Shown here: positions 4,543 to 41,490 of the stretch, one piece after another | How the letters are laid out: every line of letters begins with the position of its first letter | Numbering within the stretch: position 1 is the first letter of the stretch | DNA from: Chryseolinea serpens | GTDB taxonomy: Bacteria; Bacteroidota; Bacteroidia; Cytophagales; Cyclobacteriaceae | DNA length: 64,000 nt | Reading direction: 5' to 3' | Assembly (NCBI RefSeq): GCF_900129725.1 | Contig: NZ_FQWQ01000001.1 | Span: 3,286,001 to 3,350,000 of the forward strand | Made by a program: the position numbers and the translations under genes | The notes under the pieces: generated by a model | What the model saw: only the letters and a program-made list of their open reading frames with translations | Database searches by the model: none | What the model was told of the DNA's origin: nothing

Positions 4543-5160
4543 ATGGCTAAAAAAGATGCAGTAGCGGAGAGTGCGCTGAACGTCAGTCCCGCCGAGTTTG
4601 AGAAAATTCCCCTGGAATTTGTCATTGCCACACCCTTGTTAACCACCATCAAAGCGCACCAGGTGGCCGCGCAAACCACCCTGGAGTTTGTGAAAGGTCT
4701 GCTGAACAAAGACGGCGTGATGCCGACCGTCGAGTTTACGATGCAGGTCAAAGAGACCAGGGACGGTAAAGAGGTCCTGGTGGACCGGAAGATCACCGTG
4801 CCGCTGATCACCCTGGTGAAGGTGCCCAGTTTGAATTTTGATTCGCTGAGCGTCAGTTTCAATTACAACATCAGCCAGGTGGTGACCGATAAAAACGCGG
4901 CCGCACAAAGCGCTAAGCTGCAGATCGGAACCACCGGGATCCTAAGCAAATTCGTGAATGCATCCCTGTCGGGATCGATCGATCATTCCCGGTCAACCGA
5001 AAACACGGCCAATCGCGGCGGTAGCCTGGACATTAAGATTCACGTGAGCGAATCGGCCATGCCTCCAGGACTATTAAAAGTTATCAACGCATTGGTTGAC
5101 AATATCAACACGCCGGAGCAAGAAGCAGCCCCTGCCCCCGTAGAGGGCCCAAACCCATAA
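4543..5160 (+). CDS. DUF2589 family protein (205 aa)
   Basis: The clearest DUF2589 member of the set. Residues 20-55 make an amphipathic helix (FVIATPLLTTIKAHQVAAQTT). A long beta-rich core follows (VPLITLVKVPSLNFDSLSVSF, then IDHSRSTENTANRGGSLDIKI), and the protein closes with the family ending MPPGLLKVINALVDNI and a Pro/Ala/Glu-rich tail. There is no export signal. Its layout parallels the upstream gene, which points to duplication and perhaps hetero-oligomer formation. An ATG overlaps its stop (TAATG at 5158-5162) and could start a 58-codon frame (5160-5336), but that frame overlaps the next gene and I do not favour it. Confidence 0.85.
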   Translation: MAKKDAVAESALNVSPAEFEKIPLEFVIATPLLTTIKAHQVAAQTTLEFVKGLLNKDGVMPTVEFTMQVKETRDGKEVLVDRKITVPLITLVKVPSLNFDSLSVSFNYNISQVVTDKNAAAQSAKLQIGTTGILSKFVNASLSGSIDHSRSTENTANRGGSLDIKIHVSESAMPPGLLKVINALVDNINTPEQEAAPAPVEGPNP

Positions 5161-5245
5161 TGCCAGATGATGGATTCAGGTTGTTCGCGTCAAGAATTCC
5201 GATCTTCCATCACTGGCTGAACTTCAAAGAAAAAATAAGAGCGTC

Positions 5246-5713
5246 ATGGGGACAGCTGGAAAAACAAGTGAAATACAGCCTCACTTTCAGGGAATGGCTT
5301 CCCAAATCCTTAAGGAGGTTATTCGGGCAGATATGAGCATGCACCAGGCGCAAATAGAGGCCTGGCAATGGTTCTCAACCCATTTGCCCAAAGGAGAATA
5401 TATCAACGACGACCTGCGCGATGGCTTGCCGCGGAACATGTATCTCGCCATGAGCGATCTTTCACTGACGTTTTATGTAAAGCCCGTGGCCTTGGATTTT
5501 TGGCCACGACTTCGACTGGGGTGGAAGGTTTTGCGGGGACGGGTTCCCGGATTTGTCAATCATCCGAACGCTTACGTGATCTGCTCCCCGTCCGACGAAC
5601 TGGCCATGCAGGTAAAAATAAATGTGACCCGCAATAAAAATGGAACCGTCAAAGCCACCTATGGGCCGGCCGATGCGGTGACCGCCGAACTACTTAAAAC
5701 CCCGCGCAAATGA
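5246..5713 (+). CDS. Hypothetical protein of the DUF2589 cassette (155 aa)
   Basis: I do not recognise a named family. Residues 14-50 repeat the plan of the two upstream proteins: an amphipathic helix (ASQILKEVIRADMSMHQAQ, then EAWQWF) followed by a beta-rich part (MYLAMSDLSLTFYVKPVAL, then DELAMQVKINVTRN). The similarity is one of layout rather than sequence identity. ATG 5246 is used as start; ATG 5294 (MASQILKEV) is the alternative and would leave the helix intact. The stop overlaps the start of the next gene by four bases (ATGA at 5710-5713), so the two are translationally coupled. Confidence 0.65.
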   Translation: MGTAGKTSEIQPHFQGMASQILKEVIRADMSMHQAQIEAWQWFSTHLPKGEYINDDLRDGLPRNMYLAMSDLSLTFYVKPVALDFWPRLRLGWKVLRGRVPGFVNHPNAYVICSPSDELAMQVKINVTRNKNGTVKATYGPADAVTAELLKTPRK

Positions 5714-9082: not shown

Positions 9083-9288
9083 GCCAGGATGATGTACGCG
9101 CCCATCAATCAACGTTAAAAAATAAAATGGCCTAAAATTGCCCCCATGGGCATGATTTTAGAATATCGCAACATGCCTCCGGACTGGAATGGCGAATATA
9201 TTCGGGGACCTGTGTGCGGCGGCAGGTGTTCTCTTGCATCATGAGGATTTTTTTCCAATCTTTCATTTTCCCTAACCCAAGCCTCGTG

Positions 9289-10308
9289 ATGTCTGACGAC
9301 CAGTTCCATTTTTCGGGAGCACCCGAACCTCATCGTATTCGCACCCTCCAGATCCTGAAGCAACATCCGGAGGTGAAGGCGCTGATGGGGAAAAATCCGT
9401 TCACAAGCCTGGCGATCGTCGGCATGGTGGGGGCTATGATCGGTCTCTCCTATTGGGTGAAAGACAGTGCGTGGTGGATCATCCTGCTGCTGGCCTATGG
9501 AGTCGGCGCTTTTCTGAACCATTCACTCTTCGTGATGATCCACGAGTGCTCGCATTATCTGCTGTTCCGCAGCAAGGCGCTGAACAATATCTTTGCCATC
9601 ATGGCCAACCTGCCGCATGTGGTGCCGTCGGCCATCTCGTTCAAGCGTTATCATATCAAGCATCATTCCTTTCAGGGCGTCCATGAGCTGGATGCCGACC
9701 TTCCGGACTTTTGGGAAGCGCGGCTGATCCGCAATTCCACTGCCGGCAAAGCCCTCTGGCTGTTGCTGTTCCCATTCTTCCAGGTGACGAGAACCTTCCG
9801 GCTAAAGGAGATCAAACCCATCGACGGCTGGATCGTGATCAACTGGATAGTACAGATTGCCTTCAATGTTGCTATCTGGATCTACTTCGGCCCTGGCGCG
9901 CTACTGTTCATGTTGTTGAGTTTCTTTTTCTCGGTGGGACTCCATCCCCTTGGTGCACGATGGATCCAGGAACACTACCTCACGCTGGACGAGAACCAGG
10001 AGACATACAGCTACTATGGTCCTTTGAATGTTGTCGCCTTCAACGTGGGCTTTCACAACGAACACCACGACTTTCCTTCCGTGCCCTGGAACCGGTTGCC
10101 GCGACTGAAGAAGCAGGCGCCGGCATTCTACGATACCCTGTTGTCGCATGCCTCTTGGACACGGCTCTTTTTCCGCTTCTTGTTCGACAAGAATATCTCA
10201 TTGTTCTCGCGCACGGTGCGACAGGAACGAGGCAAGGTGAAGCTGACGGACGAATCGAAACCAGATCTCGAGTTGGTGGAAGCGGGACCCCTGGCTGCAA
10301 AATCCTGA
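9289..10308 (+). CDS. Fatty acid/sphingolipid desaturase, dihydroceramide Delta4-desaturase (DES1)-like
   Basis: The product (339 residues from ATG 9289, MSDDQFHF) has the three histidine boxes of membrane di-iron desaturases: HECSH near residue 85, HIKHH near 122 and HNEHHDFP near 256. The last box, NVGFHNEHHDFP, and the N-terminal part with EPHRIRTLQILKQHPEVK and LMGKNP follow the plan of eukaryotic sphingolipid Delta4-desaturases (DES1/DEGS), including the short N-terminal Lipid_DES region. Four or more TM segments lie between the boxes. Many Bacteroidota make dihydroceramides, so a ceramide-like substrate is a reasonable inference, but an acyl-lipid substrate cannot be excluded. An ATG at 9241 would add 16 residues (MRIFFQSF). 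It is a single gene, convergent with the next one. Confidence 0.85.
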   Translation: MSDDQFHFSGAPEPHRIRTLQILKQHPEVKALMGKNPFTSLAIVGMVGAMIGLSYWVKDSAWWIILLLAYGVGAFLNHSLFVMIHECSHYLLFRSKALNNIFAIMANLPHVVPSAISFKRYHIKHHSFQGVHELDADLPDFWEARLIRNSTAGKALWLLLFPFFQVTRTFRLKEIKPIDGWIVINWIVQIAFNVAIWIYFGPGALLFMLLSFFFSVGLHPLGARWIQEHYLTLDENQETYSYYGPLNVVAFNVGFHNEHHDFPSVPWNRLPRLKKQAPAFYDTLLSHASWTRLFFRFLFDKNISLFSRTVRQERGKVKLTDESKPDLELVEAGPLAAKS

Positions 10309-10796: not shown

Positions 10797-10899
10797 ATGA
10801 AATTAGTTTTCACGCTTACCGCTATCTTGTTTAAGATGACGGGCCAATATACGCGCATCCACTAAATATTTCTCGCTATTTTTGTTTAAACCCGACGCT

Positions 10900-11661
10900 G
10901 TGTTGTCCATTCCTTTTGAAATTACGATTGCTGGGATTCCGTTAAATATTCATTTGATCCTGGAATATTTAGCCTTCTTTTCCGCCTATCGATATTACGT
11001 CTACTTACGGAAAAACCGTCTTGATCCCATAAACCATTCGAACAGGCTCTCTATTATGTTAGGGGCAGCGTTAGGCGCCTTTCTGGGTTCGCGTCTTATG
11101 GGGTTTCTCGAAAACCCGGTTCTGGATATCAGCGCTGTGAGCTTCATGCAGCTATACAATCTCAAAACCATCATGGGTGGATTGTTTGGAGGGCTGCTCG
11201 GTGTGGAACTGGCCAAGCGGATCATCCATGAAAAAAATTCTTCCGGCGATCTCTTTACGTTGCCGATCATACTGGGTATCTTCATCGGCAGGATCGGTTG
11301 TTTCCTGTCGGGCGTGAATGAGTTTACGTATGGGACCACGACTTCCTTTGCTACCGGAATGGATTTAGGGGATGGGTTGAAGCGCCATCCGATTGCTTTG
11401 TACGAAATCTTGTTTCTCGTTCTATTATTCGTTTTCTTGAGGAAGTTGTACCTCCAAAACAAATTCGAAAACGGGCTCCTCTTCAAGCTCTTTATGGTAA
11501 GTTATTTCGGGTTCCGTTTTCTGATCGAGTTCATCAAACCCAATGCGTTTTTCGTGTTGGGACTGAGCAGCATTCAGTGGCTTTGCATCGTATGTTTTGT
11601 TTATTATAGAAAAACCTTAATCCATCTTCCCCGTGCCTACGCGAAAGTATACCTATTATGA
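10900..11661 (+). CDS. Lgt-like membrane protein (divergent prolipoprotein diacylglyceryl transferase family)
   Basis: About 253 residues with at least six TM segments. Signature blocks of Lgt are visible: IGRIGCFLSGVNEFTYG (matching GRxGNFxNxExxG), RHPIALYEI (matching RHPxQLYE) and FRFLIEFIK with the conserved Arg. Two key positions differ. The F-H-G-G-L motif reads GGLFGGLLG with no histidine, and the Asn of GNF is Cys. The enzyme may therefore not modify prolipoproteins. There is no in-frame ATG at the start; GTG 10900 or TTG 10903 fits the length of the paralogue at 40363. A TATTTTTG at 10877-10884 matches the Bacteroidota -7 element (TAnnTTTG) and would give a very short leader. The radical SAM gene begins inside its last codons (29-base overlap), so the two are translated together. 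Confidence 0.8.
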   Translation: MLSIPFEITIAGIPLNIHLILEYLAFFSAYRYYVYLRKNRLDPINHSNRLSIMLGAALGAFLGSRLMGFLENPVLDISAVSFMQLYNLKTIMGGLFGGLLGVELAKRIIHEKNSSGDLFTLPIILGIFIGRIGCFLSGVNEFTYGTTTSFATGMDLGDGLKRHPIALYEILFLVLLFVFLRKLYLQNKFENGLLFKLFMVSYFGFRFLIEFIKPNAFFVLGLSSIQWLCIVCFVYYRKTLIHLPRAYAKVYLL

Positions 11662-13018
11662 TTTCACTTTAAGTCTCTGCCCGGAGTGCCTGAGGCGTAT
11701 CGACGCAAAAATTGTGTTTGAAGACGAGAAGGTATACATGCTGAAGCGCTGCCCGGAACACGGCGCGTCAAAAGTGATCATTGCCGACGATGTTGCTTAC
11801 TACAAGAACATCCGGAACTATAACAAGCCCTCGGAGACACCGTATACATTCAACACCAAAACACACTATGGCTGTCCTTACGATTGTGGGCTGTGCCCGG
11901 ACCACGAGCAACACTCCTGTCTTACCGTAGTGGAAATTACCGACCGTTGCAACCTGACTTGCCCTACTTGCTACGCCGGTTCATCGCCGGCCTATGGCAG
12001 ACACCGTACCCTGGAGGAAGTGAAAAAAATGTTGGATGCCGTGGTCACCAATGAGCACGAGCCGGATGTTGTCCAGATCAGCGGAGGCGAACCTACGCTG
12101 CACCCTCAATTGTTCGAGATCCTCGACTACGCCAAGTCGCTGCCCATAAAACACCTCATGCTCAATACCAATGGCATCGAGATCGCCAAGAATTTTGAAT
12201 TCGCCAAGCGGCTGGCGTCCTACGCACCAAACTTTGAGATCTATCTGCAATTTGATTCCTTCAAAAATGAAGTCCTGCAAGTGATGCGGGGAGCAAGCCT
12301 TTCCACCATTCGCGAAGAGGCGCTTGAACATTTGAATGCGCTCAACTTGTCGACTACCCTGGTCGTCACGGTCCAGAAAAATCTCAACGACAATGAGATC
12401 GGGAAGATCATTGAATTTGCATTGAAGCAACGTTGCGTCCGCGGTGTCACCTTGCAGCCCACACAAATTGCTGGGCGGCTTGAAAACTTCAATACACTAA
12501 CCGATCGGATCACGCTTACGGAAGTGCGCAGAAAAATTCTGGAACAGACCGATATTTTTAACCCCGACGACCTGATCCCCGTACCTTGCAATCCCGATGC
12601 GCTGGTGATGGGTTATGCGCTGAAACTGGGTGATGCTGTATTTCCGCTCACACGCTATATCAATCCCGCAGATTTACTGGATAACAGCCGCAATACCATT
12701 GTGTATGAACAAGACCCGCAACTCCATTCGCGCATGATCAAATTGTTTAGCACAGGAAATTCAGTAGAATCCACCACGGAACAACTGCATTCGTTGCTTT
12801 GCTGCCTGCCTCAAATCCATGCGCCTGCACTCTCGTATGACAACCTGTTCCGGGTGATCATCATGCAGTTTATCGATGCCTACAACTTTGATGTACGCTC
12901 GGTGAAGAAATCGTGCGTGCACATTGTGAACAAGGATTACAAAATCATTCCATTCGAAACCATGAACCTGTTTTACCGCGATCACAAACGGGAATATTTA
13001 CAAGAACTTATCAACTAA
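11633..13018 (+). CDS. Radical SAM protein of the MJ0619 / tetraether lipid synthase-like family
   Basis: The 461-residue product begins at GTG 11633. The N-terminal domain has SLCPECLRRIDAKI and LKRCPEHG, then YGCPYDCGLCPDH, an extra C-x3-C-x2-C site. The radical SAM motif follows as CNLTCPTCY (near residue 104), and SGGEP binds the SAM amino group. This order of cysteine sets is typical of the group that includes Methanocaldococcus MJ0619, first described as a methyltransferase and later shown for close homologues (Tes) to join lipid chains by C-C bond formation. In bacteria, relatives are candidates for membrane-spanning lipid synthesis. The overlap with an Lgt-like membrane protein, which handles glycerophospholipids, fits a lipid substrate. 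The exact reaction is inference. Confidence 0.85.
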   Translation: MPTRKYTYYDFTLSLCPECLRRIDAKIVFEDEKVYMLKRCPEHGASKVIIADDVAYYKNIRNYNKPSETPYTFNTKTHYGCPYDCGLCPDHEQHSCLTVVEITDRCNLTCPTCYAGSSPAYGRHRTLEEVKKMLDAVVTNEHEPDVVQISGGEPTLHPQLFEILDYAKSLPIKHLMLNTNGIEIAKNFEFAKRLASYAPNFEIYLQFDSFKNEVLQVMRGASLSTIREEALEHLNALNLSTTLVVTVQKNLNDNEIGKIIEFALKQRCVRGVTLQPTQIAGRLENFNTLTDRITLTEVRRKILEQTDIFNPDDLIPVPCNPDALVMGYALKLGDAVFPLTRYINPADLLDNSRNTIVYEQDPQLHSRMIKLFSTGNSVESTTEQLHSLLCCLPQIHAPALSYDNLFRVIIMQFIDAYNFDVRSVKKSCVHIVNKDYKIIPFETMNLFYRDHKREYLQELIN

Positions 13019-13029
13019 GCAGCATCCCT

Positions 13030-13206
13030 ATGGAAGCACTAATATTACTTATCCTGCTCGTCATGTTCGGCCCGCCGGTGTTATTCCTCATCGTGGGACT
13101 AGTGAAGCGAAGTCGCAACCAGGATTCGGCCAAGGTCTTTTTTATTCTTGGGGCCGTGTGGCTTATTGTTGGGGGCGGCATTTGCGCTTCACTACTTATG
13201 TCATAG
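13030..13206 (+). CDS. Small two-TM membrane protein (58 aa)
   Basis: Starts at ATG 13030 (MEALILLILLVMFGPPVLF), 11 bases after the radical SAM stop. Two hydrophobic segments (residues 2-22 and 37-57) flank a basic loop KRSRNQDSAK, so both ends are probably outside and the loop inside. No family is recognised. Its position suggests co-transcription with the Lgt-like and radical SAM genes. The second Lgt-like gene (40363-41130) is likewise followed by a small membrane protein gene. Confidence 0.6.
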   Translation: MEALILLILLVMFGPPVLFLIVGLVKRSRNQDSAKVFFILGAVWLIVGGGICASLLMS

Positions 13207-40362: not shown

Positions 40363-41130
40363 ATGCCTTATCCCTTGCCCTTCAGTTCTCCCGGTTTCAG
40401 CATGAAGGCGCACCTCTTTTTTGAAACCCTTGCCTTTTTTGCAGGCTATCGATATTTCGTTTACCTGAGAAAAACAAAGTCAGACCCCATACCGGAAACC
40501 AAACGCATCTGGATCATCATTGCAGCCGCATTTGGAGCGTTCTTCTTTTCGAGACTGTTGGGCTCCCTGGAAGATCCGATCCAATTCATCAACTCCCCCG
40601 CGCCGTTGATTTATTTCTACGCCAATAAAACCATCGTTGGCGGCTTATTGGGTGCATTGATCACGGTTGAACTCACAAAAAAAATACTGCATGAAAAATC
40701 TTCTTCGGGCGACCTGTTCACCTATCCCCTCATCCTTGCCATGATCATCGGGAGAGTTGGATGTTTTTTGGCGGGTGTTACGGAGCCTACCTATGGCGTT
40801 GCCTCATCCCTGCCCTGGGCCATAGATTTGGGTGATGGCGTGCCTCGCCACCCCATAGCCCTGTATGAAATTGTGTTTCTTGTTGCCCTCTGGATCAGTC
40901 TTGTTCAAATCGAAAAGCCAGTTACCCTGGCCAATGGGGTGAGATTCAAAATGTTTATGATCGGCTATCTCGTTTTCAGGTTATTCATCGAGTGGATAAA
41001 ACCTGCGCATTTTTTCTCCATCGGCATCACCACCATTCAACTGGCGTGTCTCGCCGGGTTATTCTACTATTATAAAACGGTATATTTCCTTGCCTTAAGG
41101 CCATCGAAACTTATTGTGCAGGCGGATTGA
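40363..41130 (+). CDS. Second Lgt-like membrane protein
   Basis: 255 residues, paralogous over its whole length to 10900-11661: LAFFAGYRYFVYLRKTKSDP against LAFFSAYRYYVYLRKNRLDP, HEKSSSGDLFTYPLILAMIIGR against HEKNSSGDLFTLPIILGIFIGR. Lgt marks are IGRVGCFLAGVTEPTYG, RHPIALYEI and FRLFIEWIK. As in the first copy the canonical F-H-G-G-L histidine is missing (segment GGLLGALIT) and the GNF Asn is Cys. Here no radical SAM gene follows; an 91-residue membrane protein does, 84 bases downstream. The shared substitutions indicate a subfamily with its own function. Confidence 0.78.
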   Translation: MPYPLPFSSPGFSMKAHLFFETLAFFAGYRYFVYLRKTKSDPIPETKRIWIIIAAAFGAFFFSRLLGSLEDPIQFINSPAPLIYFYANKTIVGGLLGALITVELTKKILHEKSSSGDLFTYPLILAMIIGRVGCFLAGVTEPTYGVASSLPWAIDLGDGVPRHPIALYEIVFLVALWISLVQIEKPVTLANGVRFKMFMIGYLVFRLFIEWIKPAHFFSIGITTIQLACLAGLFYYYKTVYFLALRPSKLIVQAD

Positions 41131-41214: not shown

Positions 41215-41490
41215 ATGAATAAACTAGGTAAAGTAGCAGGCATAAATCTATTGATCTTATTTTGCTACATGATATTCATCTATATCAGCAACAAAGGCAC
41301 GGGTGAAGCCGAGCTTGGCATTTTGATCTTGGCCGCGTTCTGCATCACGATTCATGTTTTTCTAAACTTCGGGCTTGGAATTTATTTTGTGTTCAGACAC
41401 GACAAGGCCCTAGGTCGGGCATTTTTTTTGAGCGCAGGCATCGTCTTGGTTGTTGGCTTCTCATCATGCTTGGGCAGTGTTGCCCTGTAA
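41215..41490 (+). CDS. Small membrane protein (91 aa)
   Basis: Three hydrophobic segments (about 8-24, 35-58, 70-90). The product starts MNKLGKVAGINLLILFCYMI and ends FSSCLGSVAL. No family is recognised. Its place after an Lgt-like gene parallels the 58-residue protein near the first Lgt-like gene, although the sequences are not obviously related. Confidence 0.6.
   Translation: MNKLGKVAGINLLILFCYMIFIYISNKGTGEAELGILILAAFCITIHVFLNFGLGIYFVFRHDKALGRAFFLSAGIVLVVGFSSCLGSVAL

Follow-up and report, generated by a model that had tools for sequence, protein, structure and literature searches.

Organisation and conservation of the locus

The window analysed here, a stretch of 64,000 nucleotides from Chryseolinea serpens, contained three adjacent genes (the trio) encoding an Lgt-like membrane protein, a radical SAM protein and a small membrane protein with a lone cysteine at the end of its last helix, called Cys-tail protein below (Table 1). 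A second Lgt-like gene lay further downstream and was followed after 84 bases by a second Cys-tail gene, with no radical SAM gene alongside (locus B). The 29-base overlap between the first Lgt-like gene and the radical SAM gene, noted in the preliminary description of this DNA, was borne out by the coordinates of the open reading frames. The reading frame of Cys-tail A is open from position 12913.

Table 1. Coordinates and properties of the genes considered in the window
Feature	Coordinates	Strand	Properties
Lgt-like membrane protein A	10882..11661	+	259 aa, TTG start as called; PF01790 E=9.7e-25
Radical SAM protein, MJ0619/Tes/TrsS group	11633..13018	+	461 aa, GTG start; PF23545 + PF04055
Cys-tail small membrane protein A	13030..13206	+	58 aa from ATG; ends GGGICASLLMS
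Lgt-like membrane protein B	40363..41130	+	255 aa; 50% identity to Lgt-like A
Cys-tail small membrane protein B	41215..41490	+	91 aa; ends GFSSCLGSVAL

A contig scan gave at least 585 pattern matches and at least 540 confirmed relatives, of which the best 80 were taken as loci; all of them are titled Bacteroidota. The coupling of the Lgt-like and Tes-like genes that had been proposed recurred in these 80 other loci (the best 80 of at least 540), so the pair is not peculiar to this genome and the association of the trio genes cannot be put down to chance. In this Bacteroidota survey an Lgt-like partner was found in 79 of the best 80 loci of at least 540, at a distance of at most 1.5 kb in 75 and with an 11-base overlap in 45. 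In the 80th locus (L081) the contig begins 72 bases before the radical SAM gene, and the contig end cuts the locus. An lgt that seemed to be split in L058 was explained by the edge of the locus together with an independent C-terminal fragment. Similarly, a supposed in-frame TGA in the radical SAM gene of G178 was placed by its coordinates at the gene's own stop.

By the curated cut-offs the proteins are neither Tes, nor TrsS, nor true Lgt. Neither the pair nor the trio carries a name in Pfam or NCBIfam, against which the proteins were scanned. No description of the trio was found in the literature as judged by titles and abstracts, most subscription papers lying outside the search.

Just upstream of the trio lies a gene (9214-10308) for a fatty-acid desaturase with matches to PF00487 and PF08557, the latter corresponding to the N-terminal part of sphingolipid Delta4-desaturases. 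It was rejected as a part of the trio, being present in only two of the 85 loci searched, namely the window and G001, where it is about 7 kb away from the radical SAM gene. When the neighbours at 103 loci were clustered, no constant fourth gene emerged. The next most frequent neighbours occurred in at most 41 loci and were housekeeping-like genes, which we take to be dus, lepA, a LolC/E-like permease gene and rbfA. Within one genus the surroundings of the trio were common to G000 and G001 and different in G002 and G003.

The Lgt-like proteins

Lgt-like A is clearly a member of the Pfam family LGT (87.7 bits; cut-off 24.9), yet it scored only 45.1 bits against the NCBIfam model for lgt, TIGR00544 (cut-off 118.9), in agreement with its earlier designation as a divergent Lgt-like protein. 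Its AlphaFold model (pLDDT 79.5) matched E. coli Lgt (PDB 5azb) with E=1.4e-4 and a TM-score of 0.59 by query length, and this was the only PDB match below 0.001.

The fold and the family are therefore shared with Lgt, and so are several residues. The equivalents of Arg143 (in the motif GRxGC), HP..YE, Glu202, Tyr235, Arg239 and one Gln were invariant in all 17 aligned Lgt-like proteins. In contrast to Lgt, the catalytic His motif (SHGG/HGGL) was absent from 17 of 17 aligned rows, the window protein reading GRIGC, and the position of Asn146 was occupied by Cys, likewise in 17 of 17; the same Cys was found in 35 of 35 close rows. The Lgt-like protein keeps most of the phosphatidylglycerol-site residues of Lgt but lacks the His credited with activation of the thiol. 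According to the available text of PMC8689077, E. coli Lgt is inactivated by changes of His103 or Asn146. Because both the His motif and Asn146 are missing in the Lgt-like proteins, ordinary Lgt catalysis seems unlikely, and this counts against their carrying out lipidation of the Lgt type.

It might be argued that lipid plays no part here at all. The Cys tail would then serve in redox reactions or in sulfur handling, with the Lgt-like protein as a catalytically altered partner (in a disulfide, in a persulfide or as a receptor) and not as a lipid transferase. Such a role would agree with the missing His motif, the new invariant Cys (17 of 17) and the lone Cys of the partner protein, but it would have no need of the equivalents of Arg143, Glu202, Tyr235 and Arg239 that are invariant in the same 17 rows, and we regard it as very unlikely.

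The host genome possesses four genes of the LGT family, two high-scoring ones and the two Lgt-like genes. The catalytic His motif is also missing from an LGT-family protein encoded at L222 4561-5304 (it reads GLTFYGGLL); no trio was noticed around it, and it is possibly a further Lgt variant.

The Cys-tail proteins

The small membrane protein had been mentioned as a mere addition to the enzyme pair. It proved to be the most telling part of the locus: it is duplicated and divergent around a constant lone terminal Cys. There are one to four copies per locus. Among the best 80 loci of at least 540 many carry two or three Cys-tail proteins, and G047 has four as counted by reading. No family in Pfam or NCBIfam matched above its cut-off. 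The proteins are scarcely alike between lineages, and the terminal Cys is their one constant feature. Cys-tail A and Cys-tail B have only the last helix in common (E=0.046), and no second copy of Cys-tail A was detected in the genome at E<0.2.

For counting, a fixed rule was used: 17 hydrophobic residues before a Cys in the last 18, basic residues upstream, location on the same strand and a distance of at most 1.5 kb. By this rule a Cys-tail ORF was present in 80 of 80 Bacteroidota loci (the best 80 of at least 540 relatives), while 505 kb of distant flanks, counted on both strands, yielded 19 such ORFs as background; the loci are mostly related by descent, so these counts are not independent trials. 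This background supersedes a smaller one, with Cys tails in 126 of 138 near and 4 of 19 far cases, in which the far sample was small. In a second set of 26 loci (the window, L032-L035, L155-L158, L160-L172, L175-L177 and L206) 22 passed by script, and L158, L177 and L206 were added by reading or by a looser rule, which gives 25 of 26; no Cys-tail protein was found near the radical SAM gene of L165. Applied to the 64-kb window, a slightly looser rule picked out the two Cys-tail genes and, as the third and last ORF, one of 45 aa that lies against another gene on the opposite strand.

The surroundings of the terminal Cys are also biased. Position -2 was Gly in 105, position -1 Ile in 68 and position +1 Gly in 92 of 117 tails, and in 83 of 114 distinct tails the Cys stood 17 residues past the last basic residue. 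In these loci, 44 canonical lipoprotein signals picked out by a pattern search gave a median of 14 for the distance from basic residue to Cys. The tails do not match the standard N-terminal lipobox, whose consensus is given as [LV][ASTVI][GAS]C in the available text of PMC8689077: the Cys is C-terminal, with Ile at -1 and Gly at -2. From the distribution of charges the tail Cys is predicted to face outward.

Locus B adds to this picture. Cys-tail B is 45% identical (40 of 88 residues) to the Cys-tail protein of the trio in G003, and Lgt-like B shares 60% identity with the Lgt-like protein encoded there; in that trio the radical SAM gene stands between the Lgt-like and Cys-tail genes. The pairing at locus B together with this likeness to G003 indicates that Lgt-like and Cys-tail genes go together. 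Possibly one radical SAM enzyme serves both pairs of the window.

The radical SAM protein

In addition to PF04055 (Radical_SAM), the radical SAM protein matched PF23545 (Zn_ribbon_HMPTM, E=8.9e-21). Its best PDB match was Tes/GDGT-MAS (7tol, E=1.1e-71). As previously suggested, it has the cysteine layout of the MJ0619/Tes group, and the residues of all the Tes-type metal sites were found. They are C16-x2-C19-x20-C40-x2-H43, C81-C85-C88-H91 and C106-x3-C110-x2-C113, matching the rubredoxin, N-auxiliary and radical SAM sites of Tes as described in the accessible part of PMC9433317. Thus it shares with Tes (MJ0619; NF045702) the N-terminal zinc-ribbon/rubredoxin site, the N-auxiliary site and the radical SAM core, as well as an FxDAYNFD-like stretch near the C-terminus. 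The likeness to Tes expected from the preliminary description therefore stood for the three upstream metal sites; it did not extend to two C-terminal positions, Tyr459 and the PFC Cys of Tes, which are replaced by I431 and E442. Met439 of Tes aligned with M411 in one comparison, yet the Bacteroidota Tes L159 has no Met at that column. C319, C390, C391 and C428 were invariant across 30 close rows. An AlphaFold model of the protein (pLDDT 60.4) was too poor for use.

Against NCBIfam the best match was TrsS (NF045646) with 325 bits, below its cut-off of 490, and the score for Tes was 297.8 bits against a curated cut-off of 450. The partners differ as well. Loci that we label Trs-type from their methyltransferase partner have the methyltransferase gene adjoining and no Lgt-like gene, and the candidate true Tes of the sampled set, L159, lies at a locus without an Lgt-like gene or a Cys-tail protein, unlike the trio loci. 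By the fixed rule none of the six Tes or Trs-type loci (L159, L173, L174 and L207-L209) contained a Cys-tail ORF. In a tree of 26 radical SAM rows the 21 of the Lgt group fell on one side of a single branch; this split is weakly supported (76/91), and the branches of the tree are long. The host genome has one full-length copy of this type; the other match was 28% identical over 185 residues (E=3.4e-7).

Two groups of relatives deserve mention in their own right. The protein encoded at L159 7864-9321 in the Bacteroidota genome G124 exceeds the Tes cut-off (493.8 bits), has no Lgt-like gene alongside and is a candidate for a true tetraether-synthase homologue. Related radical SAM genes are also found on a plasmid of Mycolicibacterium vanbaalenii and on four haloarchaeal plasmids (L173, L174, L207-L209). 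There a methyltransferase gene adjoins, a redoxin, DUF547 or thiol-oxidoreductase gene is often nearby and no Lgt-like gene is present. Here the same group of radical SAM enzymes has another set of partners.

These comparisons bear on the function proposed in the preliminary description, the joining or methylation of acyl chains, as in membrane-spanning lipids. The radical SAM enzyme would couple or methylate the acyl chains of free phospholipids, the Lgt-like protein would present or transfer the glycerolipid, and the small protein would be an accessory or scaffold. The closest solved relative is indeed the lipid-coupling Tes, whose metal sites are kept and which binds phospholipid tails according to the accessible part of PMC9433317, and Lgt binds phosphatidylglycerol. 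However, the missed Tes cut-off and the changed C-terminal positions do not favour such a function. It also gives no reason for the duplication of the small proteins and their divergence around one terminal Cys, or for the existence of an Lgt-like/Cys-tail pair without a radical SAM gene at locus B. The idea of a free-lipid pathway is possible but on balance unlikely, and it passes over the likely substrate, the Cys-tail protein.

Genes for RiPP precursors are typically short and variable and stand in tandem next to that of a radical SAM enzyme. The Cys-tail genes show these features: they are small, variable and in tandem beside the gene of a modifying enzyme. The radical SAM enzyme might thus modify the Cys-tail peptide itself, for example by introducing a thioether crosslink, while anchoring or handling of the product might fall to the Lgt-like protein. 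A combination of a metalloenzyme step with lipoprotein-type lipidation on peptides has been reported for the DAG-RiPPs, small encoded peptides that also occur in Bacteroidota (PMC12636315, as far as its available text goes). According to the same text, however, DAG-RiPPs have an N-terminal lipobox, pass through the general lipoprotein pathway and depend on an MNIO enzyme, whereas the trio comprises an Lgt paralogue of its own and a radical SAM enzyme, and its Cys is C-terminal. Moreover the Cys site is predicted at the outer end of the helix, far from a cytoplasmic enzyme, and the closest solved relative of that enzyme works on lipid tails. A pure peptide modification of this kind seems to us unlikely.

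Distribution of the trio

Among 59 genomes (the host and relatives) a full-length orthologue of the radical SAM protein was present in five, and an Lgt-like protein with E<1e-70 in exactly those five; the best matches in the remaining genomes were 8.5e-11 and 1.3e-10. In a sample of 395 Bacteroidota genomes 33 encoded the radical SAM protein (E<=1e-40), and 32 of these 33 had an Lgt hit (E<=1e-12), the two genes being unlinked in two of the 32 (G092 and G327). The exception was G124, whose radical SAM protein was the only one of nine scored to exceed the Tes cut-off. Conversely, Lgt hits at E<=1e-12 were obtained in 38 of the 395 genomes, six of which lacked the radical SAM gene. All but one of these six hits were weak: four showed the canonical SHG motif (G139, G232, G365 and G377) and one did not (G224); no Cys-tail gene was noticed by eye near the latter.

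Two cases count against a three-part system. G075 encodes a clear Lgt-like protein (L219 4653-5498, E=1e-74), but no radical SAM gene was seen at E<=1e-40, and the 10 kb that were read contained no Cys-tail ORF. L165 has neither an Lgt-like nor a Cys-tail gene next to its radical SAM gene; its genome contains an Lgt-like gene elsewhere, with no Cys-tail gene in the 9 kb read there.

The position of the Cys-tail gene varies in distant relatives: it may follow the radical SAM gene, separate the two enzyme genes or follow the Lgt-like gene. Both a Cys-tail protein and an Lgt-like gene, the latter at most about 1.1 kb away, are retained in L155-L158, whose radical SAM proteins show 37-40% identity. 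In L157 an isoprenylcysteine methyltransferase-like membrane protein is encoded between the radical SAM and Lgt-like genes (4784-5377; NF040696, 81.3 bits, cut-off 160). The trio was also found in actinobacterial records of PLSDB, from Mycobacterium branderi (L175), M. avium (L206) and Nonomuraea (L177), the last of which is named a plasmid but is 11.9 Mb long. Their radical SAM proteins are 31-32% identical over 72% of the query, and the two mycobacterial plasmids encode two Cys-tail proteins each. The cysteines of the N-auxiliary cluster are missing from L175, L206, L177 and L158. L158, although from a Bacteroidota genome, grouped with the actinobacterial rows (support 100/100), and this placement suggests transfer between phyla. 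In the plasmid records the genes are called radical SAM protein, prolipoprotein diacylglyceryl transferase family protein and hypothetical protein; such generic names conceal the trio on the mycobacterial plasmids.

Possible function and significance

The three-gene system probably attaches or rebuilds lipid on the Cys-tail membrane proteins. In our preferred reading, to which we give a probability of roughly 45%, the trio would be a three-part maturation system with the Cys-tail proteins as substrates, the Lgt-like protein as the enzyme lipidating the Cys and the radical SAM protein as the one altering lipid or peptide. The last helix of the substrate would begin at a basic end, probably in the cytoplasm, cross to the outer side and stop at the Cys, with few residues to follow, resembling a lipoprotein signal peptide with the lipobox placed at the C-terminus. 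The Lgt-like protein would transfer a glycerolipid onto the Cys of the tail, perhaps by way of its own invariant pocket Cys. The radical SAM enzyme would then join or alter the lipid tails, or it might prepare the lipid or the peptide beforehand.

We infer the substrate role of the Cys-tail protein from its multiple copies, its divergence, its one constant Cys and its pairing with an Lgt-like gene at locus B; the tandem copies and the divergence are what a substrate could be expected to display. Retention of the trio at 31-40% radical SAM identity and in altered gene order would likewise support a maturation system. On the other hand, a tail unlike the standard lipobox argues against lipidation, and it is not obvious how a radical SAM enzyme in the cytoplasm would reach a Cys that faces outward, which argues against maturation in this form. 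By analogy, the system as a whole would work like lipidation or RiPP-like maturation joined to a radical enzyme for lipid tails. The chemistry might be formation of a diacylglyceryl thioether, coupling of tails or crosslinking of the peptide. A bolder version, in which a Cys-based Lgt paralogue lipidates the tail Cys and the radical SAM enzyme couples the attached tails across the bilayer, would yield a protein-anchored membrane-spanning lipid and with it a new class of proteolipid common to Bacteroidota and mycobacteria; we hold it to be quite unlikely.

According to the available texts of PMC8941075, PMC9433317 and PMC11868695, the role of Tes-family radical SAM enzymes in bacteria is unproven. 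The trio provides a concrete partner set for one clade of them. It is common, both enzymes being encoded in 32 of 395 sampled Bacteroidota genomes, and it also occurs on mycobacterial plasmids. It may represent a second route of protein lipidation, with an Lgt paralogue of its own and a C-terminal Cys signal.
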